Positions 24,121 through 62,842 are shown, numbered from the stretch's first letter. The stretch: DNA of 64,000 bases from a bacterium (GCA_030425045.1 JAUHVL010000001.1:124001-188000), one strand, 5' to 3'. Translations and numbers: made by a program. Notes: a model not told the origin generated them from the sequence alone.

Positions 24121-24123
24121 CTA

Positions 24124-25182: not shown

Positions 25183-25207
25183 CGTATATGATTATAGAAT
25201 AGATAGA

Positions 25208-26701
25208 GTGAAAACATCAAAAAATATGAATAACCAGATTAAGAAAAAAGACCCTATACTTTTAATTATTATTTCTTGCCTTGTCTACTTATATATCTTT
25301 AGAGTATTTGGACATCACGGTGGAGATAATTTTGCGTTCTTATATACTTTTAACGAGAAAATATCATTAGATCGCTTTTGGTTTCTTCTTACAGAGTCCA
25401 AAACACATGGATATCAGTATCGACCATTAGGATTTTTTGGGTTTTATTATCTTTTGGGTAGCTTCTTCTCTGTAAATGTTTGGGGTTATAAAATAATTAA
25501 TGCTGCTTTAATGATTGTGAACTCCTACTTGGTTTACTCGATTAGTTTTAAGTTCGTCGCAAAGAGGGATCTCGCTTTAATTAGCAGCTTTATATTTTTA
25601 AGTTCATATGGATTTCAACCTCAGCAGATTGATTTAAGCCTTATTGCCAAATATGGTTTTGTTACAACGTTGTTTTTATTTTTGTACAAATATCATATAC
25701 AGAATAATTCGCTAGGAAATATGGTTTTATTTTTATGTAGTGCAATTATGATTATGCTGCATGAAGGGGTTGTTGGAATTATTTTGGTGCTCTCTCTTAT
25801 GTCTGTAGTTTTGTTAAAAAACTATATTTCAGCATTGGTTTTAATTTTTCCATTAGGGCTTTATTCAGTAATGAGAATTTTTGTATGGGAAGTTCCAAGT
25901 AGTGGCTTTATGGCCATTGGTGTAGATAGAGTTTTGTTATATTTTTTATATAGTGGAGCAGCTTCTTTCTCCTCCATGGTCTCATTGGATAATTATGTAA
26001 TTTTATTTTTTGTTTTGTTTGTTCCAATTATTTATTGGTTGATAAAGAAAAAAGACAAAACACTATTTTTCTTATTTACGATGACGTTGTTTTCTTATTT
26101 ACCTTTTTGCTTTTTAAGAGAACATACAATTACTGATGTAACAATTAAGTCGCCGATCTGGTCGGCTTCCTTTGCCTCAATTTTAGTGGTTGCTTTATTT
26201 AAAGACTTAAAGCGTAAGAAGGTATTATTTGGATTAATATTTTGGACTAATGTCTTTGGTTCTTATCAGTTTCATCAAAAAGTACTTATCCCTAAGTACA
26301 AGTGGTTTGATAGTATTGTCGAAAGAACAAAAAGAAGCTTTGATAAAGTAGTTTTAGGCAATACATCAAAGAAAATATATATAAACTTAAATGACAATGA
26401 TAAGATTAAACCTGTAGAAAAGATTTATAATAGAGTCTTTCTTCCTGGTGTTCTATCGTATCTATACCCTGATCATTCTTTTATTCTGAAATATCCAGAT
26501 TATCAAAACCTATCAAAGACTAGTTTTACTCACATAAATATTGAAAAGAAAAGTTTACCAAAATATATACTGAACGAGGGTGAGATCTTAAAGGTATTTG
26601 ATGAATATGGATATATTTATGATGTTAAAAATATCGATATAAAACTTAATGGTGAATACTCAGAGTTGAACTTTATTACGTCTAAAGAAATAATAAATTA
26701 A
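25208..26701 (+). CDS. Polytopic membrane protein, GT-C glycosyltransferase-like
   Basis: A 497-residue protein with about ten transmembrane helices in the first 335 residues and a polar C-terminal domain of about 150. An early acidic loop follows helix 1 (FGHHGGDNFAF), as in GT-C enzymes that use polyprenyl-phosphate sugars, but the match is only by topology. GTG 25208 is used as start; ATG 25226 is possible. The end overlaps the convergent VanZ-like gene by 42 bases. Confidence 0.5.
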   Translation: MKTSKNMNNQIKKKDPILLIIISCLVYLYIFRVFGHHGGDNFAFLYTFNEKISLDRFWFLLTESKTHGYQYRPLGFFGFYYLLGSFFSVNVWGYKIINAALMIVNSYLVYSISFKFVAKRDLALISSFIFLSSYGFQPQQIDLSLIAKYGFVTTLFLFLYKYHIQNNSLGNMVLFLCSAIMIMLHEGVVGIILVLSLMSVVLLKNYISALVLIFPLGLYSVMRIFVWEVPSSGFMAIGVDRVLLYFLYSGAASFSSMVSLDNYVILFFVLFVPIIYWLIKKKDKTLFFLFTMTLFSYLPFCFLREHTITDVTIKSPIWSASFASILVVALFKDLKRKKVLFGLIFWTNVFGSYQFHQKVLIPKYKWFDSIVERTKRSFDKVVLGNTSKKIYINLNDNDKIKPVEKIYNRVFLPGVLSYLYPDHSFILKYPDYQNLSKTSFTHINIEKKSLPKYILNEGEILKVFDEYGYIYDVKNIDIKLNGEYSELNFITSKEIIN

Positions 26702-27067
26702 GAAAAAAGATAATCCGATTAAAGTTCCCATAATATTAAAAAAAACATCCATATGAGAGGCTATCCTCGTAGGTGTGAAGTACTGAATAACTTCAGTGAA
26801 AATTCCCAGAAAAGTACTTGCAGCGAAAGATAGAAGTAAAGATTTCTTTAATGAAAACTTAAAAGAAACTGTAAAGGAAAAAACAGTAAGAAGTGAAAGA
26901 AGGGAGTATTTAATTAAGTGTCTCGTTTTAAAGTTTGTTTTTTGAGGAATATTTTTTACCCAACCGATGTGTTCTCTTGTTTCTTCCCAAGTCCAAAACG
27001 AGCTATAAATTAAAAAAGTAATATAGATAATAGTGATTATTGGTAAAAGATATTTAGCGTTTTTCAT
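26660..27067 (-). CDS. VanZ-like membrane protein
   Basis: A 135-residue protein with four hydrophobic helices and the VanZ-family signature TEVIQYFTPTRIASHMDVFFN followed by a Gly-containing helix. VanZ proteins bind or alter lipoglycopeptide and lipid-linked cell-wall processes; here the role is unknown. It is the last gene of a three-gene minus-strand unit with ATGA-type overlaps. Confidence 0.75.
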   Translation of the reverse strand: MKNAKYLLPIITIIYITFLIYSSFWTWEETREHIGWVKNIPQKTNFKTRHLIKYSLLSLLTVFSFTVSFKFSLKKSLLLSFAASTFLGIFTEVIQYFTPTRIASHMDVFFNIMGTLIGLSFFLIYYFFRRNKVQL

Positions 27068-28116
27068 ATTATAAATGTGTAAGAATGAAAGTATCGGGAT
27101 TCTTTCCAGTTGTTTGGTTTTAAATGTTTTGGAAACGTATTAGAAAATAGCTTTTTTTGTTTGGGTAATGTCTGGTTGAGTGAAATTTGAAAAACTCCTC
27201 CGTTGCTAATAATAATAAATGAATTTAATTTTTTCGAAAAGCTAATACCTGTTGGAAACGGTATTTGGAATGTATTTTGGCACCTGTAGGAAGACTTATT
27301 CCAAAAATGTATATGATTATCCCAAGGTGCTGTTGTAATAACATAATCTGAATCAGAGTGATCACAGATACTAAGAATTTCATATTTTAAAGTGTCTTTT
27401 TGTTTGTGGCTTGTTTCGAAAACGTTAGTTTTAAATGTTTCTAAATCAATTGAAGCCATAGTAGAGCAACCACTCTCACCAAGAGGCTTTTGCTTAATAA
27501 CCGTTGAAAAGGCCATGGATCCAGAGTTAAAAGTATGGCCAAAATTACCGAGAATAGGACTATTATGGTTACTCAAAAAACGATGATAATTAGACACAAA
27601 AACAATATTTCCCGATGGTAAGATATGATTTTTTCGATTCGAAATAATGTCATGAAATTCACTTTTAAAGTCTGACGAGACCAGTATTGGTTGTGAAAAG
27701 TCTTTTAGATTTATATTAGCGATGCCGTGTTGATTAGTTTTTGTGTTATAAGCGGTGGCCACTAGCTGGTTTTCTTTGTTAATTATTCCGTGACCATAAA
27801 AGTGCATATTTTCTTCTAGTTTATAGTAGGAGATATGACCGACCTTGTTGGCTGTAATAAAACAAATATTTGGACCATTCTTTTCTAGTCCTATAAGAAT
27901 ATTGCTAGATTTGTTATAGACAAATGAGTGAATTAAAAACTTCGTTTCTATATTTTGAATTGTTTGATTTTCTAGATTAAAAATAGAGAAGCCGTACTTA
28001 TGACCTTTCTTTTTAAAGGAAGAAAAAATTAATTCATTTTTTTTGTCTTTAGCATAAGTCTGAAGCGTAAACGGTAGACTAATTAAATAGGTAAGAAATG
28101 TTCTTCTTTCGATCAT
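27064..28116 (-). CDS. DUF1513-like exported beta-propeller protein
   Basis: A 350-residue protein starting with a twin-arginine-like export signal (IERRTFLTYLISLP). The segment HFYGHGIINKENQLVAT and the general order of short beta repeats match DUF1513 proteins, which are exported propeller-like proteins often near iron-uptake genes. No iron genes are nearby here. It overlaps both neighbours by 4 bases, so it forms a unit with the VanZ-like and the His-containing membrane protein. Confidence 0.65.
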   Translation of the reverse strand: MIERRTFLTYLISLPFTLQTYAKDKKNELIFSSFKKKGHKYGFSIFNLENQTIQNIETKFLIHSFVYNKSSNILIGLEKNGPNICFITANKVGHISYYKLEENMHFYGHGIINKENQLVATAYNTKTNQHGIANINLKDFSQPILVSSDFKSEFHDIISNRKNHILPSGNIVFVSNYHRFLSNHNSPILGNFGHTFNSGSMAFSTVIKQKPLGESGCSTMASIDLETFKTNVFETSHKQKDTLKYEILSICDHSDSDYVITTAPWDNHIHFWNKSSYRCQNTFQIPFPTGISFSKKLNSFIIISNGGVFQISLNQTLPKQKKLFSNTFPKHLKPNNWKESRYFHSYTFII

Positions 28117-29111
28117 TTTGCAAGACTACTGTTAAATGGTGAATAACGTTTTTTCCATATAAAAAAGTCAAAAACGTAATGAACAATTAGTGGTACCCAC
28201 ACAAAAGCCATGCTCCAATGCTTCAGGTCAAAGTTAGGTTTAATGACCATATTGTTTGAGACATACCATATTATGGCCAGCAGGATTGAGATTGCAAAAA
28301 AAGAGTAGTTGAAATAGATTTTCTTCATACTTGGGTTTTTTTGATAACCGTAGTCTAAATGAGAGTAGGTGATATAAAAAAGACCATGGTTGATAATTAA
28401 AAAAGACCAAAAAATATCAGGGTTTTTTAAAATAACAATTGATAAATATAACCAAGTCCAAACACTAAACATATTTGAAAGTTTGAATAAATTAAGAGAT
28501 ACATTTTTATACTTTAGATAGAATTGATAAAAAATATAAAAGAGAATTATCAAAAGGTGACAGGCATGTAATATGTTGGCAATTTCGATTGGTATGCCAG
28601 TGATAAAGTCATCTCGATGAAAATAAGATTGAGCAAAAGGCTTATGATCTGATATCCACCATAATAAAGGAAAAAGCATTATATTTATTGAAAAAATATT
28701 GTCTATTATTCTTGAAGATTGATCTTTCGTTTTGGCCCTTGAAACCATAAAAAAACCATAATGTTGTCTAAAAATATGAAAGATTGCAAAAAAAGCGAGG
28801 CAGGTAATAAAGAGCTCAAAAGTTACACTATAGAAAAAAACGAGAAGCATTATTGTTAAAGTTGATATTAGCAGAACTTTATTTAGGTTGAGTTGATTTT
28901 TTTTCATCCTCGCCATAAGTGGAATAAAGGTTGAGCAAACATGGGCCATTTCGATCGGGATTCCTATTAAAAGCACATACTTAAGGGACTCGTACTCAGA
29001 GTGAAAGTTTAAATCAGTTAATAGAAAAGCGGTAAGAAGCAGTAGAAGAACTCCCCATGAGTAAAATGTGTCAATTTTGGGGCTGAAAATAAATCCATTC
29101 TTAGCGAGCAT
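28113..29111 (-). CDS. Polytopic membrane protein with conserved-looking His residues (paralogue of 42679-43728)
   Basis: A 332-residue protein with eight or nine transmembrane helices. Polar residues in or near helices include EMAHVCSTF, FRQHYGFF, NHGLFYI and a final VHYVFDFFIWK. The protein at 42679-43728 shows the same spacing: a His after helix 2, IGHYYKQLIGY and LHIWADNIFYS. These positions could bind metal or haem, as in some membrane oxidases, but I recognise no family. It is the first gene of a three-gene unit. Confidence 0.55.
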   Translation of the reverse strand: MLAKNGFIFSPKIDTFYSWGVLLLLLTAFLLTDLNFHSEYESLKYVLLIGIPIEMAHVCSTFIPLMARMKKNQLNLNKVLLISTLTIMLLVFFYSVTFELFITCLAFFAIFHIFRQHYGFFMVSRAKTKDQSSRIIDNIFSINIMLFPLLWWISDHKPFAQSYFHRDDFITGIPIEIANILHACHLLIILFYIFYQFYLKYKNVSLNLFKLSNMFSVWTWLYLSIVILKNPDIFWSFLIINHGLFYITYSHLDYGYQKNPSMKKIYFNYSFFAISILLAIIWYVSNNMVIKPNFDLKHWSMAFVWVPLIVHYVFDFFIWKKRYSPFNSSLAK

Positions 29112-29178
29112 AATATTGAATTATACACTAATATTTGACGATTAAGCCTAAGTTCTTGATTTTATGTTATTTTTTTTA

Positions 29179-29209
29179 TTGCTTTAGAAAAGGGAAGTCG
29201 TGTTATCAT
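29179..29209 (+). promoter_or_regulatory. Possible promoter of the twin-arginine protein/TauD-like operon
   Basis: TTGCTT (29179-29184) and TATCAT (29204-29209) with a TG-type extended -10. The segment AAGTCGTGTTATCATAT (29195-29211) closely matches AAGTTGTGTTAGAATAT upstream of the related gene at 36439. The spacer is 19 bases, a little long. Confidence 0.4.
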
Positions 29210-29236
29210 ATGTATTAGACGGAAATCGAGATAGTT

Positions 29237-29635
29237 ATGAAATTTACAGATAGAAGAAAATTGATTTTGAAAGGTTTTTTTGGTTTGGCATACTTGATGC
29301 CGCTGACGAGTATTAGAGCGAGTGAGGAAAACTATAAAAGCCAGATTAAAACTCAATTTGAAAATAAAGACGAGTTGGATAGGTTTCTTTTGGCGAGATC
29401 GCGTATTCAAGGTTTTGTCGAGCAGGATAAACTAATAAGAACGTTTATAAATGCTGGTAAAATTACCTCTAGTAAAATGGCAAACTTTGATAATATTCAA
29501 TCATGGAATGTTGTTTTCAAAAGAAAAACTGACTTTTTAGAGTTTAATCAAGAAGTTTTACGAATCTATAAAAAGCACAATATAATTCAGAAATTAGAAG
29601 AAATGAAAATTAATCTCAGGTATTGGCAGGCTTGA
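29237..29635 (+). CDS. Small exported protein with twin-arginine-like signal
   Basis: A 132-residue protein whose N-terminus (TDRRKLILKGFFGLAYLMPL) is a Tat-type signal with RR, a hydrophobic stretch and a likely cleavage near IRAS. The mature part of about 105 residues is helical and charged. No family is recognised. It overlaps the following TauD-like gene by 13 bases. A second gene pair with the same layout lies at 36439-37907, so these small proteins may be partners or substrates of the oxygenases. Confidence 0.6.
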   Translation: MKFTDRRKLILKGFFGLAYLMPLTSIRASEENYKSQIKTQFENKDELDRFLLARSRIQGFVEQDKLIRTFINAGKITSSKMANFDNIQSWNVVFKRKTDFLEFNQEVLRIYKKHNIIQKLEEMKINLRYWQA

Positions 29636-30498
29636 TAGAGTCCCTTGATTCGAATAAAGACAAATTTCCTTATAGAAAGTTAAGTTCTTTCGGTGTTGAA
29701 CTCAACCTAAATGTATTAGAATTTATAGAGACTATCGGTCCAGAAGAATTTGCTAAGTTTTTGTGCCAGCATATTCTTGTTGTATTTAAAAATCAAAATT
29801 TAAATAAGTCTGAACTTGCTATGATTGCTAACCGTATAGGTAGGGTTGAAAAACTGCGTGTTCCCTTTGCAGATAAGAGTGTGCCTGAAGTTTTGCTTGT
29901 TACGAATAAGAAAAACGAGAAAGGTGAGTTCATCGGAATGTTTGGCGAAGAAGAGTTGGGTTGGCATTCAAATGGCAATAGCCGTAAAAATATTTTTGAT
30001 TCTTGTGTAGCTTTGTATTGTGAAATGCCCGGAGAAGAAACAATTACCAAATGGGTAAACACAAGAAAAGCGTTTGAAGAATTAGAGGAAGATTACAGGG
30101 ACTTGGCAGAGAAGGTCAGTTTAAACATAAAGTTTCAAAATAACAGAATTTATAACCTAAGTAAAAATTCGAATGAGTATAAAGCATTTCAAAAAACGAG
30201 TGGATTTATAAGAGAGCTTGTCTATGAACATCCATTAGATCGAAAGAAGGGATTATATTTTCCCTACCATTTTGTAGAAAAGGTGAACCTTCCTAGTGAT
30301 TGTGAGATAAGTGAAGAAGATTTTTTAGAAGAATTGAAAAAAAGAGTTTTCAAAGAAGAGTTTATGACAGATATATCCTTTGAAAAAGGTGACCTCGTTT
30401 TTAGCGATCAGTTGCACTCTCTTCATAAGAGAAGTAAGGTTCAGGGTGATCGGTTATTATATCGATTGGCTTTTAATTATGAAAAGGTGAGAGATTGA
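29623..30498 (+). CDS. TauD/TfdA-like oxygenase with His-Ser-Asn motif (copy 1)
   Basis: A 291-residue member of the TauD/TfdA fold. The segment LGWHSNGNS aligns with the WHTD motif of TauD, followed by ALYCEMPG and WVNTRKAFEEL as in TauD, but the metal-binding Asp is replaced by Asn (H115-S-N117). The distal His (SDQLHSLHKR, H268) and the Arg pair R277/R281 (DRLLYRLAF) remain. The canonical facial triad is thus 2-His plus Asn, so hydroxylation cannot be assumed; halogenase-like or inactive forms are possible. It is directly followed by a paralogue whose TTG start overlaps its stop. Confidence 0.75.
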   Translation: MAGLIESLDSNKDKFPYRKLSSFGVELNLNVLEFIETIGPEEFAKFLCQHILVVFKNQNLNKSELAMIANRIGRVEKLRVPFADKSVPEVLLVTNKKNEKGEFIGMFGEEELGWHSNGNSRKNIFDSCVALYCEMPGEETITKWVNTRKAFEELEEDYRDLAEKVSLNIKFQNNRIYNLSKNSNEYKAFQKTSGFIRELVYEHPLDRKKGLYFPYHFVEKVNLPSDCEISEEDFLEELKKRVFKEEFMTDISFEKGDLVFSDQLHSLHKRSKVQGDRLLYRLAFNYEKVRD

Positions 30499-31313
30499 GT
30501 AGTTTTGAAGCATATAATTTAGGTGAATTAAATTATGAAGAGCTCTTAAATATATCTGGCCCTGAGCTACGAGATTTGATTTGCCAGCATTTGGTAGTTA
30601 AGGCTTCTGTTAAAGATTTAGCACCTCAATTGTTTCTTGATTTATGTCGTAAAATGGGCCGGTTGCGTAAACCGAGGCAGCAATATACTCACCCAGAATT
30701 TCCGGATTTATTTCTTGTGACAAATAGAAGGGATAATGAGGGACAAAAAACAGGACTTTTTGCAGATGGTGAAATTGGTTGGCATAGCAATGGTGTTTGT
30801 ATTCCAAACTTAAAAGAAATATGTGTTGGTCTATACTGTGTTGAACCTGCAGATGGCTCCGTAACGAGATGGGTGAATACGAGAAGAGCATATCAAAACT
30901 TAAGTGAATCTGAAAAAAGTGAATTTGAAAATTTAGTTTTGCAGTTAAAGTTTCGAAATAATAAGTTTTATAAATTTGATGATTCTGATTTTGAAATGAA
31001 AGTTTTGAAAAATTTAGATGTCGTTGAAAAACCACTTGTCATGTCACACCCATTTACTGAAAAGAATGGTTTATATTTTCCACATCATTTTGTTGAAAAC
31101 TTTAGAGATCTATCTGGTTTAACTTGCGAAAAGAAAAGTCTTTTAGAGAGATTAGAAAAGATAGTTTTTAAAGATGAGTATATTTATGATCATCTCTGGA
31201 GTAAGGGAGATATTGTCTTTAGTGACCAGCTTCACTCATTACACAAAAGGAACGACTTTTCCGGCGATAGATTGCTTTATCGAACAGCTTTTGACTACAA
31301 ATATTGCAATTAA
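30495..31313 (+). CDS. TauD/TfdA-like oxygenase with His-Ser-Asn motif (copy 2)
   Basis: A 272-residue tandem paralogue of the preceding gene, starting at TTG that overlaps the previous stop (TTGA) with GGTGAG upstream. The motif is again WHSNG (H97-S-N99) and the C-terminal SDQLHSLHKR and DRLLYRTAF segments are kept. The last 4 bases overlap the convergent hydroxylase-like gene. Two different but equally modified active sites side by side suggest two steps, or a heteromer. Confidence 0.75.
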   Translation: MSSFEAYNLGELNYEELLNISGPELRDLICQHLVVKASVKDLAPQLFLDLCRKMGRLRKPRQQYTHPEFPDLFLVTNRRDNEGQKTGLFADGEIGWHSNGVCIPNLKEICVGLYCVEPADGSVTRWVNTRRAYQNLSESEKSEFENLVLQLKFRNNKFYKFDDSDFEMKVLKNLDVVEKPLVMSHPFTEKNGLYFPHHFVENFRDLSGLTCEKKSLLERLEKIVFKDEYIYDHLWSKGDIVFSDQLHSLHKRNDFSGDRLLYRTAFDYKYCN

Positions 31314-32032
31314 AGATGAGCGATATCTTCTTGATCTTCTAAGCTAAACATTAAACAGATACGATCTTGATCACTATTGTTTTCTACAGAGTGCTTGAAT
31401 CCAGTATTGAGAAAATAAGCATCTCCATTAGCCGGAAGGTTGTATGACTTCTCTTCTCCTCTTACCCAAAACTTATTTATGACATGGTCATTAGAAATGA
31501 TAGGGACAAGAACTCTAACGGCATAACTTGGATCGTAGTCAATATGAGGTGTAATTGATGAATTACCATTGAGTTTGGTTAATCTGACACGAATAGCTTT
31601 AGATTTAAACATATTGACGATTTCTTCAAAGTAACTGTTTTTATAAAGCTCAGTTGGAAAATTGTAATTATGTTCATTTAAGGCTGGATGAAGATTTTCT
31701 TTTTTTATTTTGAGACGGTAGGCACCAATTTTAGAAATTCCTTTAAGGTCATCATCACCTAAGGTTTCAGAGTAATGTTGGCAAACATCCTTTGAGACTT
31801 CTTCAATAGCGGGGCCATTATAAGTTGTTAATGTAATTTGTTCGAAATTATTATAAACGTTATCGACAAGCTGTAGGTTATTAGAGCAAAAGAGCTTGTT
31901 GGCAGAAACGACATCGACAAATTGCTCTTCGATTTTTTTTACTTCTTGAACTAGTCTTTCTATATCAAAACGAAAGCCGGGTATTGGACAGCAAACGGGC
32001 AATTCATATTTTGTTCTTTTTTTCGCATTCAT
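31310..32032 (-). CDS. Aspartyl/asparaginyl beta-hydroxylase-like 2OG oxygenase
   Basis: A 240-residue protein with the metal-binding H163-x-D165 (SITPHIDYDPSYAVRVLVPI), distal H214 (NTGFKHSVENN) and R224 (DRICLMFSL), the order seen in the Asp/Asn hydroxylase family (PF05118-type). An early CCPIPGF segment is present. Such enzymes hydroxylate amino-acid side chains in proteins, peptides or free amino acids. It follows the PLP-enzyme gene by 24 bases on the same strand. Confidence 0.75.
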   Translation of the reverse strand: MNAKKRTKYELPVCCPIPGFRFDIERLVQEVKKIEEQFVDVVSANKLFCSNNLQLVDNVYNNFEQITLTTYNGPAIEEVSKDVCQHYSETLGDDDLKGISKIGAYRLKIKKENLHPALNEHNYNFPTELYKNSYFEEIVNMFKSKAIRVRLTKLNGNSSITPHIDYDPSYAVRVLVPIISNDHVINKFWVRGEEKSYNLPANGDAYFLNTGFKHSVENNSDQDRICLMFSLEDQEDIAHL

Positions 32033-32056
32033 ATTAGCGATTATAGCTCATCGGGT

Positions 32057-32932
32057 CTACACTGCAAATAGATTTGGAGTATGTTGTGCAAAGTAGGGGG
32101 TTAGAGAAATCCTTGAAACCCCATTGTCGCGTTGCCATTTTTTATATTTATCATCACTTGTGTAACCAAGTATAACGCTGTGACTTTGCTCAATTTCGAG
32201 ATGATTGCAGACATCTTTTTGCAGCTGATGAAGAGTTTGGTGTAAGTAAAAAGGTGAGAAATTATTGAAAATACAGCTCATAATCTCAAGCTTAAACTGT
32301 GGCAAATAGGCTGCTTGATGAAGCTTTTCAAGGGCATCTATGGGGGTAGATGAAAACAAGAGGCCAGCTCTAACACTGCCTAGACCAAAAGCCTTTGAGA
32401 GTGAAAAAGTGAAGTATTTAGTATTATTTGGAAGAGAAAATGTTACTTCTTCTGAAGTACTTCCGATATAAGCACCATCAATTAATAATTGATGGGAGCT
32501 TTCAGATAATATTTTATTTAAGTTGAAAATATTTCCATCTGCAGCAAAAGGCTGAGAAAGATAAATTATTTTATTTTTGGGTATTTCATTGATGTGGCCG
32601 TAATGAGAGTTAGGCTTTAGTAAGTTTAGCCAATGGTAATCTCCTCTTAGTAACGCGATGTCATCTAGTGAGGCAAGTAGATTTAATGCTCCAGTTATTC
32701 CATTGGTAAAGTAAATATATTTTAGTTCTCGAATATTAGGGATGACTTTTTCAAGCCAGATATAAGAATGTTCAGCAAGGCTATTCCAAAGGGTGAGCAT
32801 TTCTTGATAGTTATGCGTGTTTTGGGTGAAACTGTAAGGCTGTAGTGATGCTTGTAGCTTTTGCTCAACTTCTTTGAGTAATTTTGTTTTCACTAAACGG
32901 CTTGAATCGATGCAATAAAAAGAGCTTTTCAT
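32057..32932 (-). CDS. PLP-dependent aminotransferase-like protein (fold type I), short
   Basis: A 291-residue protein, clearly shorter than the about 390 usual for class I enzymes. Fold-type-I elements are visible: cofactor-phosphate segment TNGITGALNLLASL (about 76-89), LLIDGAYIGS with Asp152 and Tyr155, and the Schiff-base lysine in FTFSLSKAFGLGSVRAG (K180). The C-terminal small domain is reduced. It could transaminate, or decarboxylate or epimerise an amino acid. It probably forms an operon with the downstream hydroxylase. Confidence 0.7.
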   Translation of the reverse strand: MKSSFYCIDSSRLVKTKLLKEVEQKLQASLQPYSFTQNTHNYQEMLTLWNSLAEHSYIWLEKVIPNIRELKYIYFTNGITGALNLLASLDDIALLRGDYHWLNLLKPNSHYGHINEIPKNKIIYLSQPFAADGNIFNLNKILSESSHQLLIDGAYIGSTSEEVTFSLPNNTKYFTFSLSKAFGLGSVRAGLLFSSTPIDALEKLHQAAYLPQFKLEIMSCIFNNFSPFYLHQTLHQLQKDVCNHLEIEQSHSVILGYTSDDKYKKWQRDNGVSRISLTPYFAQHTPNLFAV

Positions 32933-32990
32933 TGAATATAACTATATTACAAACTATTCATTGAAGATATTAAAATGATAAATTTACCTT

Positions 32991-33995
32991 ATGGATACTG
33001 TTTACACTGTCAGAGAATATGAAAAAAGAGATCGAGAATTAATTGAGGATTTTCGAAAGCAAACATTTATAGAAGGCAACGATAGTTTAACAGTTGAAAA
33101 ATTTGACCCCGAAAAACTTGAAGGCTTAACTCTTTTATTATTCTGTAATGATAAACTTGCGAGTATTTCAGTATGTGAGGCAAGTCACTATACGAATGAT
33201 ATGACCATTGCTGCTCGGATTTGTCGTTTTCATGTATTAAGAGAATTTAGGCATTGTAATGCCGGATTCAGAATGATTCGACAGCAAGTTGAATGGGCCA
33301 GGCAAACGGGCTTTAAATCTCTTTATTGGACGAATGACATTAATAAGAAAATTCTTAATGTTCTTTATCAACACGAAAGAAAAATTGGAAGAAGTGGTTT
33401 AGAAGAGGAATATGAAATTTATAAAAGCTTTAAATTAAGAAATGATTTATTGTTTCGAGTGAGTAAAAAGTCAGACTTCCTTCAGTATGTTTATGAAAAA
33501 AAACTTGATGAAAACTTCTTATGGTTACCAAAAGAAAATATGATTTATTATGCTCACGATGGGAAGGACATAAATGTTGAGGAGGTTCTTTCCATAGAAA
33601 AGCAACCCAACGTTTGGCATTTCAAAACCTCATTTAAAAAATCGAGTATTCATGGGATAGGGAGATTTTGTGAGGAAGAAATTAAAAATGGGGAAGTTGT
33701 TTGTACACTCGGTGGAGTTTTGGCAGAGAAGTCATTTAAGTCAGGATTTATGCCTATGGGAGAAAATACGGAGCTAAGATGTCAGCCAACTTTTGTAAAT
33801 CATTCCTGCGCACCAAATGTGGAACTTAAAGAAGAAAAAAAATTCGTTGCTATCAAAGATATTATGCCCGAAGAAGAAATTTGTATCGACTATTCTAATT
33901 TAAAAGAAAAAGACAAACTTGTTTTAAGTAGATGTTATTGTAAAAGTGAGAATTGCCGTAATGAAATCTTTGGTAATAAGAATTTTATCTCGTAA
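32991..33995 (+). CDS. GNAT-like domain fused to SET methyltransferase domain
   Basis: A 334-residue protein of two parts. Residues about 1-150 look like a GNAT acetyltransferase fold (LLLFCNDKLASISV; FHVLREFRHCNAGFRMIRQQVEWA). Residues about 205-325 are a SET domain: GIGRFCEEEIKNGE, the NHSCAPN motif (270-276), EEEICIDYS, and a post-SET-like Cys cluster (C315, C317, C322). SET enzymes methylate lysine on proteins. Bacterial SET proteins exist, but the fusion is unusual. It overlaps the convergent radical SAM gene by 11 bases. Confidence 0.7.
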   Translation: MDTVYTVREYEKRDRELIEDFRKQTFIEGNDSLTVEKFDPEKLEGLTLLLFCNDKLASISVCEASHYTNDMTIAARICRFHVLREFRHCNAGFRMIRQQVEWARQTGFKSLYWTNDINKKILNVLYQHERKIGRSGLEEEYEIYKSFKLRNDLLFRVSKKSDFLQYVYEKKLDENFLWLPKENMIYYAHDGKDINVEEVLSIEKQPNVWHFKTSFKKSSIHGIGRFCEEEIKNGEVVCTLGGVLAEKSFKSGFMPMGENTELRCQPTFVNHSCAPNVELKEEKKFVAIKDIMPEEEICIDYSNLKEKDKLVLSRCYCKSENCRNEIFGNKNFIS

Positions 33996-35517
33996 CTTTT
34001 AAAAAGTAATCATTGATAACGTTTTCTTTTCTTCTGGCAATCTCTTCTAGAAAATTATTATTAGAAGAGTTTGTTTCATTTCTTAGGTCTTGATAATCAA
34101 AAGACAAATTACGTAGCCGTGAATAAAAACCAGATCTGTTTGCGAGGGTTTTGTTTTTTGTCGATTTCAAAGTATAGATTTTATCGACAATTTTAAATGC
34201 TTGGTCCCGGTCCATGAGCTCATGCTTCCAGTAGCCATTATCGGGATTATAGAGATAGCCATATTTGTGAGGCATGAGGCCAAGCTCATTGGTAAATTTA
34301 GCTGTTTGATCAAGTGACTCAGCATAGTCGTGAACGAGATAAAGAGGGTGGAAGTTGAAAGAATCGACAGGAGAGTCATCTGATACGAGCCATTCATACG
34401 TTTCCCAGATACTTTCTTCTGACTCGTGTCTTAAGCCTACTATAAAGTTACAGCTAATAATAACTCGATCACCCCAGGTATCTTTTAATTTGTACAATGT
34501 ATCTTTTGTTTTTTGTGGAGAAAGGCCTTTTCCTACAGCAGCTCCTGCTTTTTGATTCAAGGTCTCAATTCCAAAATTAGCAAAGCGTAACCCTGTTTCC
34601 AGAATAGTTGGGATAGTGTCTTTATTAGCGTAGAAGAGATCGGCCCTACAATAACCTGCCCACTCTAACTCAAAATCTAGTGAGCTCGCAGCTTTAGCAT
34701 ACGAAAAAACCTTTTCCCGGCTATCGTTAAAAGTATCATCAGAAAACATATACCCAGTTGTTCCAAAGCGCTGATAGTTTTCATTCACTTCATTTGTAAA
34801 AGCGTCGAGAGATTTAATAAGTTCGTCAGAACCACGACCCAAGTTTTTAAAACTACAGTATTTACATTTAAAGACACACCCACGTGAAATTTCAATTGGT
34901 AAATGTTCATTTGGGTAAATGTGATCAGACTCATGCCACTTGATCGAAGAGATCGTATCGACGGGATAGTCGCTAGAGTGAATACATATCGTATTGTTTA
35001 TCTTTTGTGTTTTTAAGTTTGGATTACTTTTCAAAAGATACTGAGTAAGGGCAACAACAGAGTTATCGGCTTCGCCATGAAGATAATAATCAATGAGGTC
35101 TGAATCTCTTTGATGAGATTTTCCTCCACCGATAACAAGCTTTATATTTTTATTTTTACTTTTTATATACTTTAAAAGTTCTTCAGATTCATTTTCATGC
35201 ATTGGGAACTGACCTCTTTCCCAGTTCGCTATCATGTTTTTATTTGTATAACCTTCACCCTTTATAAGTTCGATTAGTTTTTTATTATTCCAGTTGGGAG
35301 AAATCAAAGTTGTAGAAAAGCCAACCCAAAGGGTTTCATGGTTTACATGCCTATTAATAAGTGAAAAGAGTTGAGATTGATTGAATTCTGCGAAAAATTC
35401 TATAACCTGAACAGAAATATTGAGTTGTCTTAATTCTGTAGCAATGCGGTAGGGGCCGGCATATCTGCCAAAACCAAGAGCACCATTGCTATCTGTAAAT
35501 ATAACTACCTGGGCCAT
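33985..35517 (-). CDS. B12-binding-domain-type radical SAM protein (1)
   Basis: A 510-residue protein. An N-terminal Rossmann-like segment (about 1-165; WVGFSTTL, KLVIGGGKSH, LHGEAD) resembles cobalamin-binding domains but lacks an obvious DxHxxG cobalamin-ligand motif. The radical SAM core has C214-x3-C218-x2-C221 (CVFKCKYC) and FGIETLNQ further on. Such enzymes methylate unactivated carbons or rearrange rings. AGG stands 7 bases before the ATG. Confidence 0.8.
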   Translation of the reverse strand: MAQVVIFTDSNGALGFGRYAGPYRIATELRQLNISVQVIEFFAEFNQSQLFSLINRHVNHETLWVGFSTTLISPNWNNKKLIELIKGEGYTNKNMIANWERGQFPMHENESEELLKYIKSKNKNIKLVIGGGKSHQRDSDLIDYYLHGEADNSVVALTQYLLKSNPNLKTQKINNTICIHSSDYPVDTISSIKWHESDHIYPNEHLPIEISRGCVFKCKYCSFKNLGRGSDELIKSLDAFTNEVNENYQRFGTTGYMFSDDTFNDSREKVFSYAKAASSLDFELEWAGYCRADLFYANKDTIPTILETGLRFANFGIETLNQKAGAAVGKGLSPQKTKDTLYKLKDTWGDRVIISCNFIVGLRHESEESIWETYEWLVSDDSPVDSFNFHPLYLVHDYAESLDQTAKFTNELGLMPHKYGYLYNPDNGYWKHELMDRDQAFKIVDKIYTLKSTKNKTLANRSGFYSRLRNLSFDYQDLRNETNSSNNNFLEEIARRKENVINDYFLKVTR

Positions 35518-35593
35518 ATAAAAACCTGATGGTTGAAATGTGTACTATTAATGCTAGCATATATTTGTTTCAAGCTTTATATAAATAATTACT

Positions 35594-36331
35594 ATGATTT
35601 CAGCGCCTCAAAAATTATTTTTATTTCAATTGATAGCTCATCTAAGTTTGGTGCCAATGATTATTTATGCCTCTTTTGAAGAGTATCTTATAGGTTTTAT
35701 TGTTTATTTTTTTACTGGTTGTTTTGGGATGACGATGACATATCATCGGCTTTTATCTCATCGATCTTGGCAAGCTCCGCGTTGGTTTTGGTACTTCGGA
35801 ACACTTTGCGCTGTATTTGGATTGACGGGAAGCCCTATTGCATGGGCTGCTGTTCACCGAGAGCATCATCGTTTTTCAGATACGGATAAAGATCCTCATT
35901 GTCCCGAAAGAATTGGTTTTTTGAAAGCCCAGTGGGGAAGTATGTTTTGTCCGGTAAAAGTTAAATATGTTACAGACTTACTAAAAGATAGATTTTTACT
36001 TTTTATTCATAAACATTATTTTAAAATAAATATGGTTTGGGCTTTAATATGTTTTTTGATAGAGCCTTTTGCGGTTGTTTATCTCTATTTATTTCCAGCT
36101 TTTTTACTTTGGAATATGGGGAGCTTTATCATCACACTGACTCATATGTTTGGCTATGAGGTAGAAGGTACTCCCGATAAAAGTAAAAATATCTTTTTTC
36201 TCGGGTATTTGCTTTGGGGTGAAGGATGGCATGCTAATCACCACAAAGATCCCAATAACCCTGTATTTTCAAATAGATGGTGGGAGTTGGATCTAGGGGG
36301 AGTCTTCATACGGATCATTTCTAGAAATTAA
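35594..36331 (+). CDS. Membrane fatty acid (acyl-CoA/lipid delta-9 type) desaturase (1)
   Basis: A 245-residue membrane protein with the three histidine boxes of acyl desaturases: HRLLSH (51-56), HREHH (88-92) and HANHH near residue 214, with WxxxHREHHRFSDTDKDPH as in delta-9 enzymes. Four transmembrane segments surround them. It would introduce a cis double bond into an acyl chain at the di-iron site, with electron donors encoded elsewhere. Its paralogue is at 37897-38685. Confidence 0.85.
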   Translation: MISAPQKLFLFQLIAHLSLVPMIIYASFEEYLIGFIVYFFTGCFGMTMTYHRLLSHRSWQAPRWFWYFGTLCAVFGLTGSPIAWAAVHREHHRFSDTDKDPHCPERIGFLKAQWGSMFCPVKVKYVTDLLKDRFLLFIHKHYFKINMVWALICFLIEPFAVVYLYLFPAFLLWNMGSFIITLTHMFGYEVEGTPDKSKNIFFLGYLLWGEGWHANHHKDPNNPVFSNRWWELDLGGVFIRIISRN

Positions 36332-36382
36332 GTAATTTCAGGTGCTTGTGAGGTCATAAGTCATTGGAATTAAATGTTCTCA

Positions 36383-36412
36383 TTGAGCGTATTTCTGAAG
36401 TTGTGTTAGAAT
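36383..36412 (+). promoter_or_regulatory. Probable promoter upstream of the second twin-arginine protein
   Basis: TTGAGC (36383-36388), 18 bases, TAGAAT (36407-36412). The surrounding AAGTTGTGTTAGAATAT shares 14 of 17 positions with the sequence upstream of the related gene at 29237. Confidence 0.5.
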
Positions 36413-36438
36413 ATTTAAAGTAAACTTAGGTGAAAACT

Positions 36439-37017
36439 ATGAATACGAGAAGATCAATTATTAAAAAACTAATGGCTGGAGTTGTAGGTACTGTTTCATC
36501 TGGTTCGATTTTGGGAGTTGAAACGATGCTGGAACTAAGTGAAGAGAACCTTAAGTATGATGAATATTTTTTCACTGTGAGAACGATCGTAATGAAAGAT
36601 AAAAAACAAAATGAAGAATTTGTTGAAAACTATTTAGACGATGGAAAATATAGAATGAGGTCTTTGTTTTCTTATCTTAAAAGTACTTTCTGGCAAAAGC
36701 ACTCTGACGAAATTGTAAAACTATATAAATCAAAAGATCTAGTTTTTAGAGCGAAGGTTGCTAACGTAGGTAACAATTGTGTTGAAGTTATAAATATTTG
36801 GTCTAGTAAAAAAATTCATGATGATTGTTATAATAAATGTAACGGTGACATGATGTTTTCAGAGTTTGATCAAAGAGGATTTAAAACAGAACTTAAGTCG
36901 GGTGTTTTAAAGAAATCTGATGTTCTTACTTTTGCAAATAAAGTAACGAGCAATGGTAAGCACGTTGTTGAAATTGGTGCAGGACCAAATAGGCATATTA
37001 AAGTTAATATTATCTAA
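36439..37017 (+). CDS. Small exported protein with twin-arginine-like signal (2)
   Basis: ATG 36439, with AGGTGA just upstream, gives 192 residues; a GTG at 36430 is a weaker option. The N-terminus NTRRSIIKKLMAGVVGTV is a clear Tat-type signal. The mature domain of about 165 residues has three cysteines close together (NNCVEV; DDCYNKCNGD) and ends HVVEIGAGPNRHIKVN. It resembles the end of SoxY/SoxZ-like or quinoprotein partner domains only loosely; no family is claimed. It precedes a TauD-like HSN gene by 11 bases, as at 29237. Confidence 0.6.
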   Translation: MNTRRSIIKKLMAGVVGTVSSGSILGVETMLELSEENLKYDEYFFTVRTIVMKDKKQNEEFVENYLDDGKYRMRSLFSYLKSTFWQKHSDEIVKLYKSKDLVFRAKVANVGNNCVEVINIWSSKKIHDDCYNKCNGDMMFSEFDQRGFKTELKSGVLKKSDVLTFANKVTSNGKHVVEIGAGPNRHIKVNII

Positions 37018-37028
37018 TCTTTATTCTT

Positions 37029-37907
37029 GTGAAAATTAATGAAATTAGTCCATGCGGAGCTTTGGAGATTGAAATAAATCTTCAAAATGCGAGCAAGGAG
37101 CAATTGTATGAAATTGCTAAGCTTACTTGTAAAAATGTTACGATCTTAATAAGAAATCAAAATCTTACTAAAAAAAACTTAATTGAAATTTACACTACAT
37201 TGGGCTCAGCACATAAGAGAAAGTTTTTTTTCTCTGATGATGAGTATCCAGAAATTTGTTTAGTAACAAATAAGAGAAGTGAAAAAGGTGAAAAACTTGG
37301 GGTGTTTGCAGATCTCGAGCTTGGTTGGCATTCGAATGGAAATACCAGAAGTAATCCAGATCAAGACTTAATTATGTTGTATTGTGAAAAGCCTGGTTTG
37401 GGTGGAGATACTTCTTTTGTAAACACAAAGATGGCCTTTGAAGAACTTTCTGATGAAGATAAGAAATATTATGAAACATTAACTTCAGAGATAAGATTTG
37501 ATGTATCTCATAAAGAAAAATTTTACGACTTGTCTAAGGATGATCCTGAATATCAAGTTTTCTCAGGAGTATCTGAAAAAAAGAGAGGTCTTGATACAGA
37601 TTATGGGATAGCAAAAAAACCACTAGTCTGTGAGCATCGCTACACTAAAGATAAAGCACTTTATTTTTGCTATCCACTAATTGAAAGGTTGGTAGATGAT
37701 AAAGGTGATACAGTTGATTCTGTTGTAGTGGAAAAATTAAAAGCCCATGTTTTTCAAAAAAGATATATTTATGAACATAAATGGCAACCCGGCGATGTTA
37801 TATTTAACGATCAGGTGATGGGGCTTCATAAAAGAACAGCGGTATCGAGAGAGGTTGAAAGACTTCTTTATCGACTTTGTTTTAATTTAAAACATGTTAA
37901 GTGGTAA
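37029..37907 (+). CDS. TauD/TfdA-like oxygenase with His-Ser-Asn motif (copy 3)
   Basis: A 292-residue TauD-like protein starting at GTG. LGWHSNGNT (H101-S-N103) again has Asn in place of the metal-ligand Asp, while GDTSFVNTKMAFEEL, NDQVMGLHKRT and RLLYRLCFNL keep the family pattern. It is closer in the middle region to TauD (GLGGDTSFVNT) than copies 1 and 2. It overlaps the convergent desaturase gene by 11 bases. Three independent copies with the same substitution make a sequencing error or random loss improbable. Confidence 0.75.
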   Translation: MKINEISPCGALEIEINLQNASKEQLYEIAKLTCKNVTILIRNQNLTKKNLIEIYTTLGSAHKRKFFFSDDEYPEICLVTNKRSEKGEKLGVFADLELGWHSNGNTRSNPDQDLIMLYCEKPGLGGDTSFVNTKMAFEELSDEDKKYYETLTSEIRFDVSHKEKFYDLSKDDPEYQVFSGVSEKKRGLDTDYGIAKKPLVCEHRYTKDKALYFCYPLIERLVDDKGDTVDSVVVEKLKAHVFQKRYIYEHKWQPGDVIFNDQVMGLHKRTAVSREVERLLYRLCFNLKHVKW

Positions 37908-38685
37908 ACGATTTAGGAAGCTTGGGTAATGGTTTTCTTGAAAGTTTAAACTTCTCAATAAGAAAAGCAGAAAGATCATATTCAGACTTCTTCAGACCAA
38001 TTCTATAATGTGAGGGGAATTTATGGTGGTTGTTGTGCCAGCCTTCTCCGCAAGTGAAAATATTTACAAGAAAGTTGTTGGTTGAAGTGTCATTCACGTT
38101 GTAAGTTCGGTAGCCATTACGATGACCAAGAGTATTGATTAAGCCAAAGGCGTGAAAGGCTAAAGCTGCGGGAACGCTGTAAACAAAGACGCCAACCAAA
38201 GGATCGATAAGGTAGAGTAAGGCGACCCAAAGTGAGAGAATTAAAAAGTATTTTTTATATAGAAACTTTTGAAAGTCTGACTTTAATAAATCTTGAACTA
38301 GCTTTCTGGGAATATAAACTTTTCCCCATAAGTGGAAATAGACATTAAAAAATCCTTTTTTGATGGGAGAGTGTGGATCTTTTTTTCCATCCGGTTCTAA
38401 GTGATGAAGTCTATGAGCTCCAACCCATGATAAGGGGGCACCTCCAGTTGCAAGACAACCAACTAAAGAAGAAAGTTTGATAAAAAAATCAGAGGCATGA
38501 AAACTTTTATGAGAAAGCAGGCGATGATATCCAATCGAGATACCAATGGAGCCAATGATGTTCCAAATGAGAAAAGAAAGTATCCACATCCACCACGAAC
38601 CATAAACGAAGGCATAAACAAGCATAGCATGATTAAAAATATGGAAAATTCTTAATTTATTGGAATTAGAGATTTTTAAATTCAT
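37897..38685 (-). CDS. Membrane fatty acid desaturase (2)
   Basis: From ATG 38685 the protein has 262 residues; the frame extends to 38709 but the GAG upstream of 38685 favours the internal start. It shows HRLLSHKSF, HRLHHLEPDGKKDPH and HNNHH boxes, the same di-iron layout as the desaturase at 35594, and GHRNGYRTYN before the third box. It is last in a minus-strand unit with the acetyltransferase-like, hydroxylase-like and small unknown genes. Confidence 0.83.
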   Translation of the reverse strand: MNLKISNSNKLRIFHIFNHAMLVYAFVYGSWWMWILSFLIWNIIGSIGISIGYHRLLSHKSFHASDFFIKLSSLVGCLATGGAPLSWVGAHRLHHLEPDGKKDPHSPIKKGFFNVYFHLWGKVYIPRKLVQDLLKSDFQKFLYKKYFLILSLWVALLYLIDPLVGVFVYSVPAALAFHAFGLINTLGHRNGYRTYNVNDTSTNNFLVNIFTCGEGWHNNHHKFPSHYRIGLKKSEYDLSAFLIEKFKLSRKPLPKLPKSFTT

Positions 38686-39265
38686 GATACTCTTTTTCCC
38701 ATTGTGCAAAACTTTTCATGGGTAATTCTAACTCAAAATGCTCGATTAGCGGAAGGTAAGCGACATGTTGCCAGCATAAAGGGTCGTCTCCATTAGCAAC
38801 TTTTCTCACTCCTGATGCAATTTGCCAACCAGGGATGTCTTTCTTTGCTTCACTGACCCATCTTCTTAGCCAATTTGACCTTTCGCCCTGTACAGAAATG
38901 AAAATGGCTTTTTTATTCAACGATTTAGCTGCCTCTATTTGCGGAAGCAGCATTTTCCTTGAAACTACCCAGTATGGCCTATCGAGAAACCGTATACTTG
39001 GATCTTTCCACATTCTGTTAAGTGCCCTTGAGACTCTGTCTGGAAAAATATCCCTATGAAATAAAGTGGAGAAGGCAACAACTTCATTTTTATAAAGTAA
39101 GAGAGTAACTTCCTCTTGCTCATCGAGAGGAAATCTTTTTGGCGTGTAGTTTAATTTGTTGGGGTCATTAGATTTTTGTATTTTATCTAAGATATTATCA
39201 AATGAATTTTTGTAAGTTGAAAAATCCTCTTTAGTGACGACACGAAGCTCTGACTCAAAACTCAT
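38666..39265 (-). CDS. GNAT acetyltransferase-like protein
   Basis: A 199-residue protein with a GNAT-like order: a beta strand with LLLYKNEVVAFSTLF, then RALNRMWKDPSIRF, a helix (SRKMLLPQIEAAKSLNKKAIFIS) and an aromatic C-terminus. Its middle resembles the N-terminal half of the GNAT-SET protein at 32991. The acetyl-CoA loop (Q/RxxGxG/A) is not well kept, so the assignment is tentative. It overlaps the desaturase start by 20 bases and the hydroxylase gene by 4. Confidence 0.5.
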   Translation of the reverse strand: MSFESELRVVTKEDFSTYKNSFDNILDKIQKSNDPNKLNYTPKRFPLDEQEEVTLLLYKNEVVAFSTLFHRDIFPDRVSRALNRMWKDPSIRFLDRPYWVVSRKMLLPQIEAAKSLNKKAIFISVQGERSNWLRRWVSEAKKDIPGWQIASGVRKVANGDDPLCWQHVAYLPLIEHFELELPMKSFAQWEKEYHEFKNL

Positions 39266-39915
39266 TGATCTTCCAGAAGGGGAAGTTTGTCGGCGATGTT
39301 TTCATAGTCGATATCAAGTAAGAGACTGATCCTTCTTTTATCACTATTGTTAGTAACTTTGTGAGGGTAGGCCGTATTGGTAAAAAATAGTGATCCTTCT
39401 TCAAAAGGTATCGAAGCGATATCACCCTTTCTATTTACTTCAAAGTTAATATCTTTATTTTCAATAAGAAGATGAAAGCGACAGCTTACTCTCGTATTCA
39501 TATCAATGTGCCAGTCAATCGATGACTTTGGTGCTAGTACAGCGATTCGTGCTCTATAGCAGCCAGGAAATTCACTATTTAAAAAATTCTTAATGACTGG
39601 GTTCTCACCATATTGAGTTAGGTTGGTATATTCTTTTTGGTTCATTCCATCCGAGCCTTCGGTTGGCTTTTGGAGTAGTATGTTAACGTGCTCTCTTGGG
39701 AGCATGGCCCTTAAGTCACAATACTTAGAAACACTGTAGTCACTTCCATAAATGTCATTTGTTTCTAGATTGGAGTCGACGATTTTGACAATTTCATTCA
39801 TGAGTTCTTTTTCAACATTCATGATTTTATAGAAGTTTGGGAGGCGGTCTCTTGCGGGTCCAGTGCCACGTACCCTCTCTTTTTTTGATGCGATAAACTG
39901 AGATCTACTCATCAT
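39262..39915 (-). CDS. Aspartyl/asparaginyl hydroxylase-like 2OG oxygenase
   Basis: A 217-residue protein: H136-x-D138 (SIDWHIDMNTRVSCRFHLLIEN), distal H185 (NTAYPHKVTNNSDKRR) and the Arg after it (R194 or R195). The pattern matches the same family as the proteins at 31310 and 60042. It overlaps the upstream small gene by 11 bases and the downstream acetyltransferase-like gene by 4, so the four genes 40174 to 37897 are one operon. Confidence 0.78.
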   Translation of the reverse strand: MMSRSQFIASKKERVRGTGPARDRLPNFYKIMNVEKELMNEIVKIVDSNLETNDIYGSDYSVSKYCDLRAMLPREHVNILLQKPTEGSDGMNQKEYTNLTQYGENPVIKNFLNSEFPGCYRARIAVLAPKSSIDWHIDMNTRVSCRFHLLIENKDINFEVNRKGDIASIPFEEGSLFFTNTAYPHKVTNNSDKRRISLLLDIDYENIADKLPLLEDQ

Positions 39916-40174
39916 TATTTCCGTTCATTAGCTCTTCAGTGAAGATATTATAGGTTTCTAGGGCTTTATCTAAAGCGCCATTTATATCTGTTATTTTCAC
40001 GAGTTCACCACTTTTGTTTGGGAGGATAATGAACTTATTTTTATCTTTGTAGTACTGAGTACTCGTTCCAAAATTCCAATGATGGAGAAAGCTCATTGTG
40101 TTTGGGTTAAGTTCGAACTCATTATTCTGCCATTCGAAAGTTAAGTTCTCTGTTAGTTTTGTTAGTTGATCCAT
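39905..40174 (-). CDS. Small protein of unknown function
   Basis: From ATG 40174 this is an 89-residue soluble, acidic protein (AGAG lies about 10 bases upstream); the frame is open to an ATG at 40237, which would leave only 17 bases to the divergent gene and shows no ribosome site. It has aromatic MSFLHHWNFG and a TQYYKDKNKFIILP strand. It shows no recognised family. It opens the hydroxylase/GNAT-like/desaturase operon and may be an assembly or substrate-binding partner. Confidence 0.5.
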   Translation of the reverse strand: MDQLTKLTENLTFEWQNNEFELNPNTMSFLHHWNFGTSTQYYKDKNKFIILPNKSGELVKITDINGALDKALETYNIFTEELMNGNNDE

Positions 40175-40254
40175 GGCGTTATTCTCTGCTAATAGAATAT
40201 CAAAAAAATGACCTATCTTGCAATTAAGTATGGGCATAATTAAGCTAAAATTAA

Positions 40255-40965
40255 GTGATGGATACTAATGATTTTCTCAATTCTTCTCCTGTTTATTTTC
40301 CTTTGGATTTGGGGGTTCTGCATGAGCGTATTTCGGCCATCAAAGATGAGCTAGATCATCTCGGTAGCGAGTGTTGGTTTTACGATAAGTATAGAAAAGT
40401 AGAAATGTGCAGTATCTACAGTGGTGGCGGGGCAAAAAATTCTAAGAAAGAGCTTTGGAGTAATAAAAACTTAGAATTAAAGTGGACAGAAAATGCTGAT
40501 AAAACTCCAGCTCTTAAAGCTTTTCTTGAAGAAAAAATATTTGAAATTATTAAACCCATGGGAAGAGTGACTATTTTAAAAACAGCTCCGGGTAATATCA
40601 TGAATGAGCACTATGATTGTGCAGAAGATGAGCTTAATAAATATAAACCTAAGTTGAGAGTTGTTGTCTCTGGTGAAATAGAGGGGCTCTATTTTTGTGG
40701 AGAAAGTGAAAAAGTTTATATACCAAAAGACTTTAATACTTATGTCATTGATGGAGCTTCAGCACACGGGATGAAAAATGTTTCTTCAGAATATAAGTAT
40801 ACAATTTGTATTGGTGCACCCTGGGAAGGGGAATACACCGAAAAAGGTGAAGAGCTTCTTCGTGAATCTATCGAGAAGTATAAAGATATAATTATTTTCA
40901 AAGAGCAACTGGGACAAAAGATTAAAAGAGTTGATTTTCAAAATTATCAAGAGGAAGCCTATTGA
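40255..40965 (+). CDS. 2OG/Fe(II) oxygenase-like protein (aspartyl hydroxylase type), variant
   Basis: A 236-residue protein with H119-x-D121 (IMNEHYDC) and distal H171 (IDGASAHGMKN). The expected 2OG-binding Arg is replaced by Lys in EYKYTICIG (K181), which could still bind 2OG's carboxylate. The order fits the aspartyl hydroxylase family. It overlaps the following radical SAM gene: TTG start over the TGA stop. Confidence 0.6.
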   Translation: MMDTNDFLNSSPVYFPLDLGVLHERISAIKDELDHLGSECWFYDKYRKVEMCSIYSGGGAKNSKKELWSNKNLELKWTENADKTPALKAFLEEKIFEIIKPMGRVTILKTAPGNIMNEHYDCAEDELNKYKPKLRVVVSGEIEGLYFCGESEKVYIPKDFNTYVIDGASAHGMKNVSSEYKYTICIGAPWEGEYTEKGEELLRESIEKYKDIIIFKEQLGQKIKRVDFQNYQEEAY

Positions 40966-43728: not shown

Positions 43729-43787
43729 TTTCTAATTATAAACGATTTAGATTTTTTTAAGAAAGTATTAAATAATAAGTTATTTGA

Positions 43788-45729: not shown

Positions 45730-45732
45730 GGT

Positions 45733-48235: not shown

Positions 48236-48282
48236 TTAAGCATCCTAAGAGAGAAATAAAAGAAGGTCAAAAGAGCAGTGAG

Positions 48283-49206: not shown

Positions 49207-49248
49207 ATATTATTTCTTTTGAATGAATATACCTCTCAATATAACAAT

Positions 49249-50415: not shown

Positions 50416-50416
50416 G

Positions 50417-51592: not shown

Positions 51593-51595
51593 AGA

Positions 51596-55182: not shown

Positions 55183-55247
55183 CCTTTTTTCAAGTTATAT
55201 TTATGATACCGTAATGTCTAGTATTTAGGGCTTATGAAGGTTTAGGA

Positions 55248-57821: not shown

Positions 57822-57863
57822 TTTTTTTGAAGCTACTTGCTATAACGTTCTACGGGGGATTAA

Positions 57864-60686: not shown

Positions 60687-60745
60687 AGGGGTATTTTAAT
60701 GCAAGATGTGTTAACAACGCTATATATATTTATTATCGTCATGTT

Positions 60746-61804: not shown

Positions 61805-61826
61805 CATTTAAAGTAGAGGTTAAAAA

Positions 61827-62825: not shown

Positions 62826-62842
62826 TTTAATTGGTGAACAAT

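Follow-up and report, generated by a model that had tools for sequence, protein, structure and literature searches.

Three TauD-like genes with a His-x-Asn motif

The stretch of bacterial DNA analysed here (GCA_030425045.1 JAUHVL010000001.1:124001-188000), hereafter the window, comprises 64,000 nucleotides, and positions given without a locus name are counted from its first letter. It encodes three paralogous proteins related to TauD, the 2-oxoglutarate (2OG) oxygenase, in which the aspartate of the metal-binding motif is replaced by asparagine (His-x-Asn, or HxN; the canonical motif is HxD/E, and other states are abbreviated likewise):

29623..30498, + strand: HxN TauD-like protein 1 (copy 1), 291 amino acids, Pfam TauD E-value 1.6e-23; motif H115-S-N117 with the Asn codon at 29971; distal H268, codon at 30424, followed by RLLYR
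30495..31313, + strand: HxN TauD-like protein 2 (copy 2), 272 amino acids, Pfam TauD E-value 1.4e-29; motif H97-S-N99 with the Asn codon at 30789; distal H250, codon at 31242
37029..37907, + strand: HxN TauD-like protein 3 (copy 3), 292 amino acids, Pfam TauD E-value 3.1e-35; motif H101-S-N103 with the Asn codon at 37335; distal H267, codon at 37827; R269, R278 and R282

All three open reading frames (ORFs) are intact, with copies 1 and 2 overlapping by 4 bases, and they score 84, 104 and 123 bits against Pfam TauD (PF02668; cut-off 27). Copy 3 shares 33-37% identity with copies 1 and 2. An earlier, sequence-only reading of this DNA had reported Asn codons in place of the metal Asp at the three positions listed, and these proved exact: WHSNG is present in every copy, the Asn codon being AAT in each case, and the HxD/E metal motif of PF02668 is absent from all three. 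In an alignment of a 38-member profile of the family with Protein Data Bank (PDB) sequences, His-Ser-Asn falls on His99-Thr-Asp101 of TauD (1gqw), and the distal His and both Arg fall on His255 and Arg266/Arg270; the same reading had held the distal His and Arg to be kept. The full-length profile match to TauD has an E-value of 9.6e-49. A fourth, weak TauD-family match elsewhere in the 3.97 Mb genome, most likely that of a Bacteriovoracaceae bacterium (Bdellovibrionota), is of the HxD type (L004, WHTDN).

The AlphaFold2 model of copy 3, the one copy modelled, was computed from 38 sequences and adopts the jelly-roll TauD fold with a predicted local distance difference test score (pLDDT) of 95.1 and a predicted template modelling score (pTM) of 0.92. 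Its nearest PDB folds are SfaA, ScoE and TauD, at template modelling (TM) scores of 0.74-0.82, and its best viral structural match is A0A7S6INW9 (TM 0.86/0.93, 33% identity), which, from its length of 269, is probably the HxN protein of Pelagibacter phage Mosig. Glu97 of copy 3 is aligned at the position of TauD Asn95, a residue that contacts the substrate taurine, and TauD itself has Asp at the positions of Asp256 and Asp261. Judged from their sequences, the three copies are a variant branch of the TauD/TfdA family (PF02668), outside canonical membership, in which the metal carboxylate appears to have been lost.

Distribution of the HxN state

An initial scan of viral sequences returned 136 relatives, of which 80 were kept, with a search pattern that included GWHSN; since this biases the HxN share, the viral sequences were rescanned with patterns taken from the C-terminal third of the proteins. 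In these scans, alignment to the family model shows HxN in 171 of 182 relatives (55 HxN and 4 HxD with query A6, 70 and 3 with A5, 46 and 4 with A7), identical sequences being counted once per scan and near copies and between-scan overlaps being still included. The flanks of the motif differ among relatives (WHSNG, WHANL, WHCNL, WHVNK and WHSNE), so that it is the Asn itself, and no frozen word, that is conserved, and its retention across the clade down to about 20% identity rules out chance. A sequencing or frameshift artefact is ruled out by the intact ORFs and by the identical motif in independent genomes and phages, and an oddity of a single genome by the spread of HxN through the clade.

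Cultured phages with HxN include Pelagibacter phage Mosig (QOI69039.1, WHSNG) and Prochlorococcus phage P-HM2 (WHSNE); there are also sequence matches in phages P-HM1 and MED4-213, in which the motif was not read. Chromosomes were searched mainly as whole genomes within the Bdellovibrionota and barely sampled elsewhere; a scan of genome contigs yielded just two loci, to which the whole-genome searches contributed further ones. The Bdellovibrionota relatives have HSN, HTN and, in one case, HSA. A Methylomagnum plasmid carries an HxN gene near genes for an acyl carrier protein and a non-ribosomal peptide synthetase (NRPS; L104 5159-12576), a neighbourhood that may point to its substrate. Of 257 viral loci, some of which share a contig, 85 carry two to four HxN genes, and the tandem paralogues of the window are therefore typical and nothing special. 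Among 25 virus records with HxN, a T4 portal was recognised in three and a terminase in two; the others could be incomplete, belong to phages of another type or be bacterial DNA miscalled as viral. The case for phages thus draws mainly on the isolates and those three records. The three genes apparently belong to a large, undescribed HxN branch of the TauD family that is common in marine phages, and of which the window holds a local sample. The literature search, with subscription papers lying outside it, turned up no HxN or 2-His-1-Asn 2OG enzyme.

Phylogeny and selection

A tree of 61 representative proteins was computed with the Asn column excluded, using a quick search and midpoint rooting, and statements depending on its root are therefore tentative. 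One clade of 41 rows comprises 38 HxN proteins, a nested HxD pair and one HxA protein (Shimodaira-Hasegawa-like approximate likelihood ratio test 91, under the 95 mark, by the quick method), and all three window copies fall inside it. The tree requires 3 changes of motif state, against 18.9 when the states are shuffled. The nested HxD pair, WHSDL and WHTDL, consists of virus-contig proteins and represents an apparent reversion. HxD virus-contig proteins nested in the HxN clade (WHTDL/WHSDL) were seen at L079 2660-3610, L075 1471-2421 and L073 2681-3679. The HxA protein, L108 (WHSAG, Ala codon GCT), is 41% identical to copy 3 and grouped with it. This halogenase-type motif was observed at L108 1456-2301 and at L122 1582-2427, and the HxA gene adjoins a second TauD-like gene (HxD) and a homologue of a small protein encoded at 36430-37017 in the window.

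Asn codons within the clade are AAT in 128 cases and AAC in 67, each one transition away from Asp, and the ratio of nonsynonymous to synonymous substitution rates (dN/dS), computed over 60 pairs, has a median of 0.10 (range 0.04-0.23). His101, Asp256, Asp261, His267, Arg269, Arg278 and Arg282 are invariant in 32 aligned members, down to 21% identity, and of 98 relatives, 93 have Glu and 5 have Asp at position 97 (ELGWHSN). That Asn is kept alongside two invariant His and three invariant Arg indicates that it is under selection. The sequence-only reading had proposed selection either for a changed chemistry or for binding only; the selection of Asn stands, given that it defines the clade, is encoded by both AAT and AAC and is accompanied by a dN/dS of about 0.10, whereas the suggestion of binding only fares poorly, the other catalytic residues being invariant.

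Genomic context of the HxN genes

The three genes lie within a large island and among genes whose counterparts also accompany HxN genes at other loci:

24121..64000 in the window, continuing to about 71437: island of about 47 kb, between tRNA-Trp and secE
29237..29635, + strand: short ORF with a start resembling a twin-arginine translocation (Tat) signal, directly upstream of copy 1
31310..32032, - strand: Asp_Arg_Hydrox (PF05118) oxygenase adjoining copies 1 and 2
32057..32932, - strand: aminotransferase-like protein, also present on virus contigs bearing HxN genes
32991..33995, + strand: SET-domain protein in which a GNAT-like region is weakly recognisable; virus contig L241 encodes a 46% identical protein
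33985..35517, - strand: radical S-adenosylmethionine (SAM) protein, nearest to B12-binding types, with a 51% identical counterpart on virus contig L041
35594..36331, + strand: fatty-acid-desaturase family protein, with a counterpart on virus contig L058 at 58% identity
36430..37017, + strand: small protein with a Tat-like start, directly upstream of copy 3
37897..38709, - strand: second fatty-acid-desaturase family protein, 68% identical to its L005 homologue
39262..39915, - strand: second Asp_Arg_Hydrox (PF05118) protein
40255..40965, + strand: conserved partner with no family assigned, whose homologue (44%) adjoins the HxN gene in L005

The PF05118 protein at 31310..32032 has homologues in L124 and on virus contigs at 44-45% identity; a homologue lies beside the HxN gene of L124 and, in Mosig, three genes from the HxN gene (L102 9862-10485). 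Homologues of the small protein at 36430..37017, which bears a weak resemblance to dimeric alpha/beta-barrel (antibiotic-monooxygenase-like) proteins, adjoin HxN/HxA genes in L005 and L122. The desaturase, two radical-SAM proteins and the SET/GNAT-like protein are 46-64% identical to virus-contig genes, and the oxygenase, desaturase and radical-SAM content of the island is largely common to marine virus contigs. Of the bacterium-virus matches seen in the island, the closest is that of a radical-SAM protein at 45733-46845 (64% identity to genes on virus contigs L070 and L091). Among 90 Pfam-searched neighbours of viral HxN genes, Asp_Arg_Hydrox is found 12 times, FA_desaturase 7 and radical SAM 4, followed by methyltransferases and FMN reductase.

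At the place of the island, tuf, tRNA-Trp, secE and nusG are contiguous in five Bacteriovoracaceae relatives; the window has two additional genes (22107-23970) between tuf and tRNA-Trp. The island encodes many radical-SAM proteins and oxygenases together with, by the look of their sequences, glycosyltransferase-like and nucleotide-sugar-dehydrogenase-like genes. Its interpretation as a prophage remnant was rejected, phage structural genes not being recognised among its proteins in a search that was not exhaustive. In Mosig, tail-fibre genes separate the HxN gene from gp14, at a distance of about 18 kb; the corresponding distance in contig G390 is about 22 kb, and in P-HM2 the HxN gene is sited elsewhere, near gp59. 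The host recognition cluster of pelagimyophages extends between VrlC and gp14 and contains tail fibres, glycosyltransferases and radical-SAM cassettes (PMC7029224), and, going by gene position, the HxN genes of Mosig and G390 fall at the place of this cluster. Fe(II)-dependent oxygenases have been described among the hypervariable island genes of marine phages, for which a role in host recognition was inferred (PMC3909814).

A proposed function for the HxN proteins

It seems reasonable to postulate, at roughly even odds (a probability of about 0.5), that the three proteins work as Fe(II)/2OG oxygenases whose neutral site is formed by two His and possibly Asn, and the exchange of Asp for Asn probably marks a real change of iron chemistry. 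The computations establish the family, the fold, the altered triad, the confinement to one clade, purifying selection and the shared clusters, while on metal ligation, activity, reaction type and substrate we infer the following. The two His would hold the iron, with the Asn amide oxygen acting as a weak neutral third ligand or with water in its stead, and the conserved Arg pair would bind 2OG; a ferryl species might then oxidise the substrate by hydroxylation, desaturation or a related oxidation. The enzymes would operate within multi-enzyme clusters combining TauD-like, Asp_Arg_Hydrox, desaturase, aminotransferase, radical-SAM and methyltransferase proteins, which appear to sit in host-recognition islands in phages and in a glycosyltransferase-containing island in the bacterium. 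As the clusters are kept in such islands, their product is likely to be a modified surface glycan, lipid or adhesin.

In favour of this proposal are the confidently predicted TauD fold, the invariant catalytic residues, the low dN/dS, the single HxN-dominated clade, and the shared gene sets and phage locations described above. As an isostere of Asp, Asn could remain in place as a neutral ligand, and lipoxygenase provides a precedent for Asn ligating iron through its amide oxygen. Carboxylate-free iron supports hydroxylation in human AspH, and some activity remains in the Asp-to-Gly variant of FIH (PMC8252765). Some points weigh against the proposal. One HxA relative and one HxD subclade imply that the role of the site may differ across the clade, and the Asp-to-Ala and Asp-to-Glu variants of FIH lose activity (PMC8252765), so that an enzyme of this kind can be inactivated by losing its carboxylate.

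An unlikely alternative is halogenase-like or other anion-transfer chemistry, in which chloride, bromide or another anion would bind the carboxylate-free iron, perhaps held by the Asn amide or the nearby Arg269, and pass to the substrate radical. Some halogenases are known from acyl carrier protein/NRPS settings, and the abundance of halide in seawater also counts in favour. The Methylomagnum member lies in just such a setting, L108, grouped with copy 3, has exactly the HxA motif, and the Asn position is the HxA/G site of 2OG halogenases (PMC8252765, PMC12871659). However, the 2OG halogenases described in the literature consulted use Gly or Ala at this site, which Asn would occupy; the 36 PDB sequence matches (E<=1e-5) include none that is named as a halogenase; and the nested HxD phage pair speaks against a strict requirement for an open site. 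A wider conjecture, that a natural 2-His-1-Asn site in a phage-borne 2OG clade performs non-hydroxylation chemistry (halogenation or anion transfer) and remodels surface molecules from host recognition islands, is likewise doubtful.

That the proteins are pseudoenzymes, binding 2OG, a substrate or a partner without catalysis, is improbable. In its favour are the absence of a canonical metal ligand and the grouping of two to four paralogues, which the window has in common with many viral loci. Against it, none of the other catalytic residues varies and dN/dS stays low across large distances, which makes a decayed pseudoenzyme unlikely, and the apparent reversion to HxD implies that the site is still able to use a carboxylate. 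Still less probable is a different metal (such as Mn, Co or Zn) or redox-neutral chemistry (such as that of a lyase) at the neutral site: a neutral triad would change metal affinity, but neither the Arg pair that binds 2OG nor the TauD fold has been lost. Least probable of all is that another side chain, above all Glu97, supplies the carboxylate and restores the normal charge at the iron. The clade-specific conservation of this acid speaks for it, but the residue lies four positions ahead of His101 at the taurine-contact position of TauD, where a role towards the substrate is likelier than metal ligation, and Asp256 and Asp261 have Asp counterparts in TauD itself.

Textbooks identify 2OG oxygenases by the 2-His-1-carboxylate triad, and Gly or Ala at the carboxylate position serves in the search for halogenases. 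Motif-based annotation would miss or mislabel HxN genes. An Asn-fixed clade with nested Asp and Ala variants constitutes a natural experiment on the role of the third ligand, and the presence of HxN genes in cultured SAR11 and Prochlorococcus phages makes both their chemistry and their role in infection testable.

Comparison with known systems

The host recognition cluster of pelagimyophages resembles the setting described here in that Mosig and G390 carry their HxN genes at this site, and in its radical-SAM and glycosyltransferase content (PMC7029224), whereas the window island is chromosomal, lies at tRNA-Trp and has no recognised phage structural genes. A related annotated phage family is the 'taurine catabolism dioxygenase' (PHROG 24590; T4-GC447 of P-HM1/P-HM2), and the P-HM2 protein falls inside the HxN clade; the PHROG 24590 profile matches copy 1 (1.8e-11) and copy 2 (9.3e-15), with no match to copy 3 at 1e-5. 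In the portions of the source covered here, T4-GC447 is annotated only as an auxiliary metabolic gene, and HxN goes unmentioned (PMC3037559). The 2OG radical halogenases SyrB2, WelO5, BesD and DAH (HxA/HxG) have lost the carboxylate at the same motif position, but they have Gly or Ala where the window copies have Asn, Ala being found only in the relative L108. Human AspH (PF05118, two-His iron) offers a natural carboxylate-free 2OG hydroxylase (PMC8252765), although it belongs to another family and is HxG, whereas the HxN clade belongs to PF02668. Finally, the TauD/TfdA family proper (TauD, RdpA, ScoE/SfaA and Rv0097) shares with the HxN proteins the fold, the proximal and distal His and the Arg pair on the 2OG side, and differs from them in having the metal Asp where the HxN proteins, a separate clade on the tree, have Asn.

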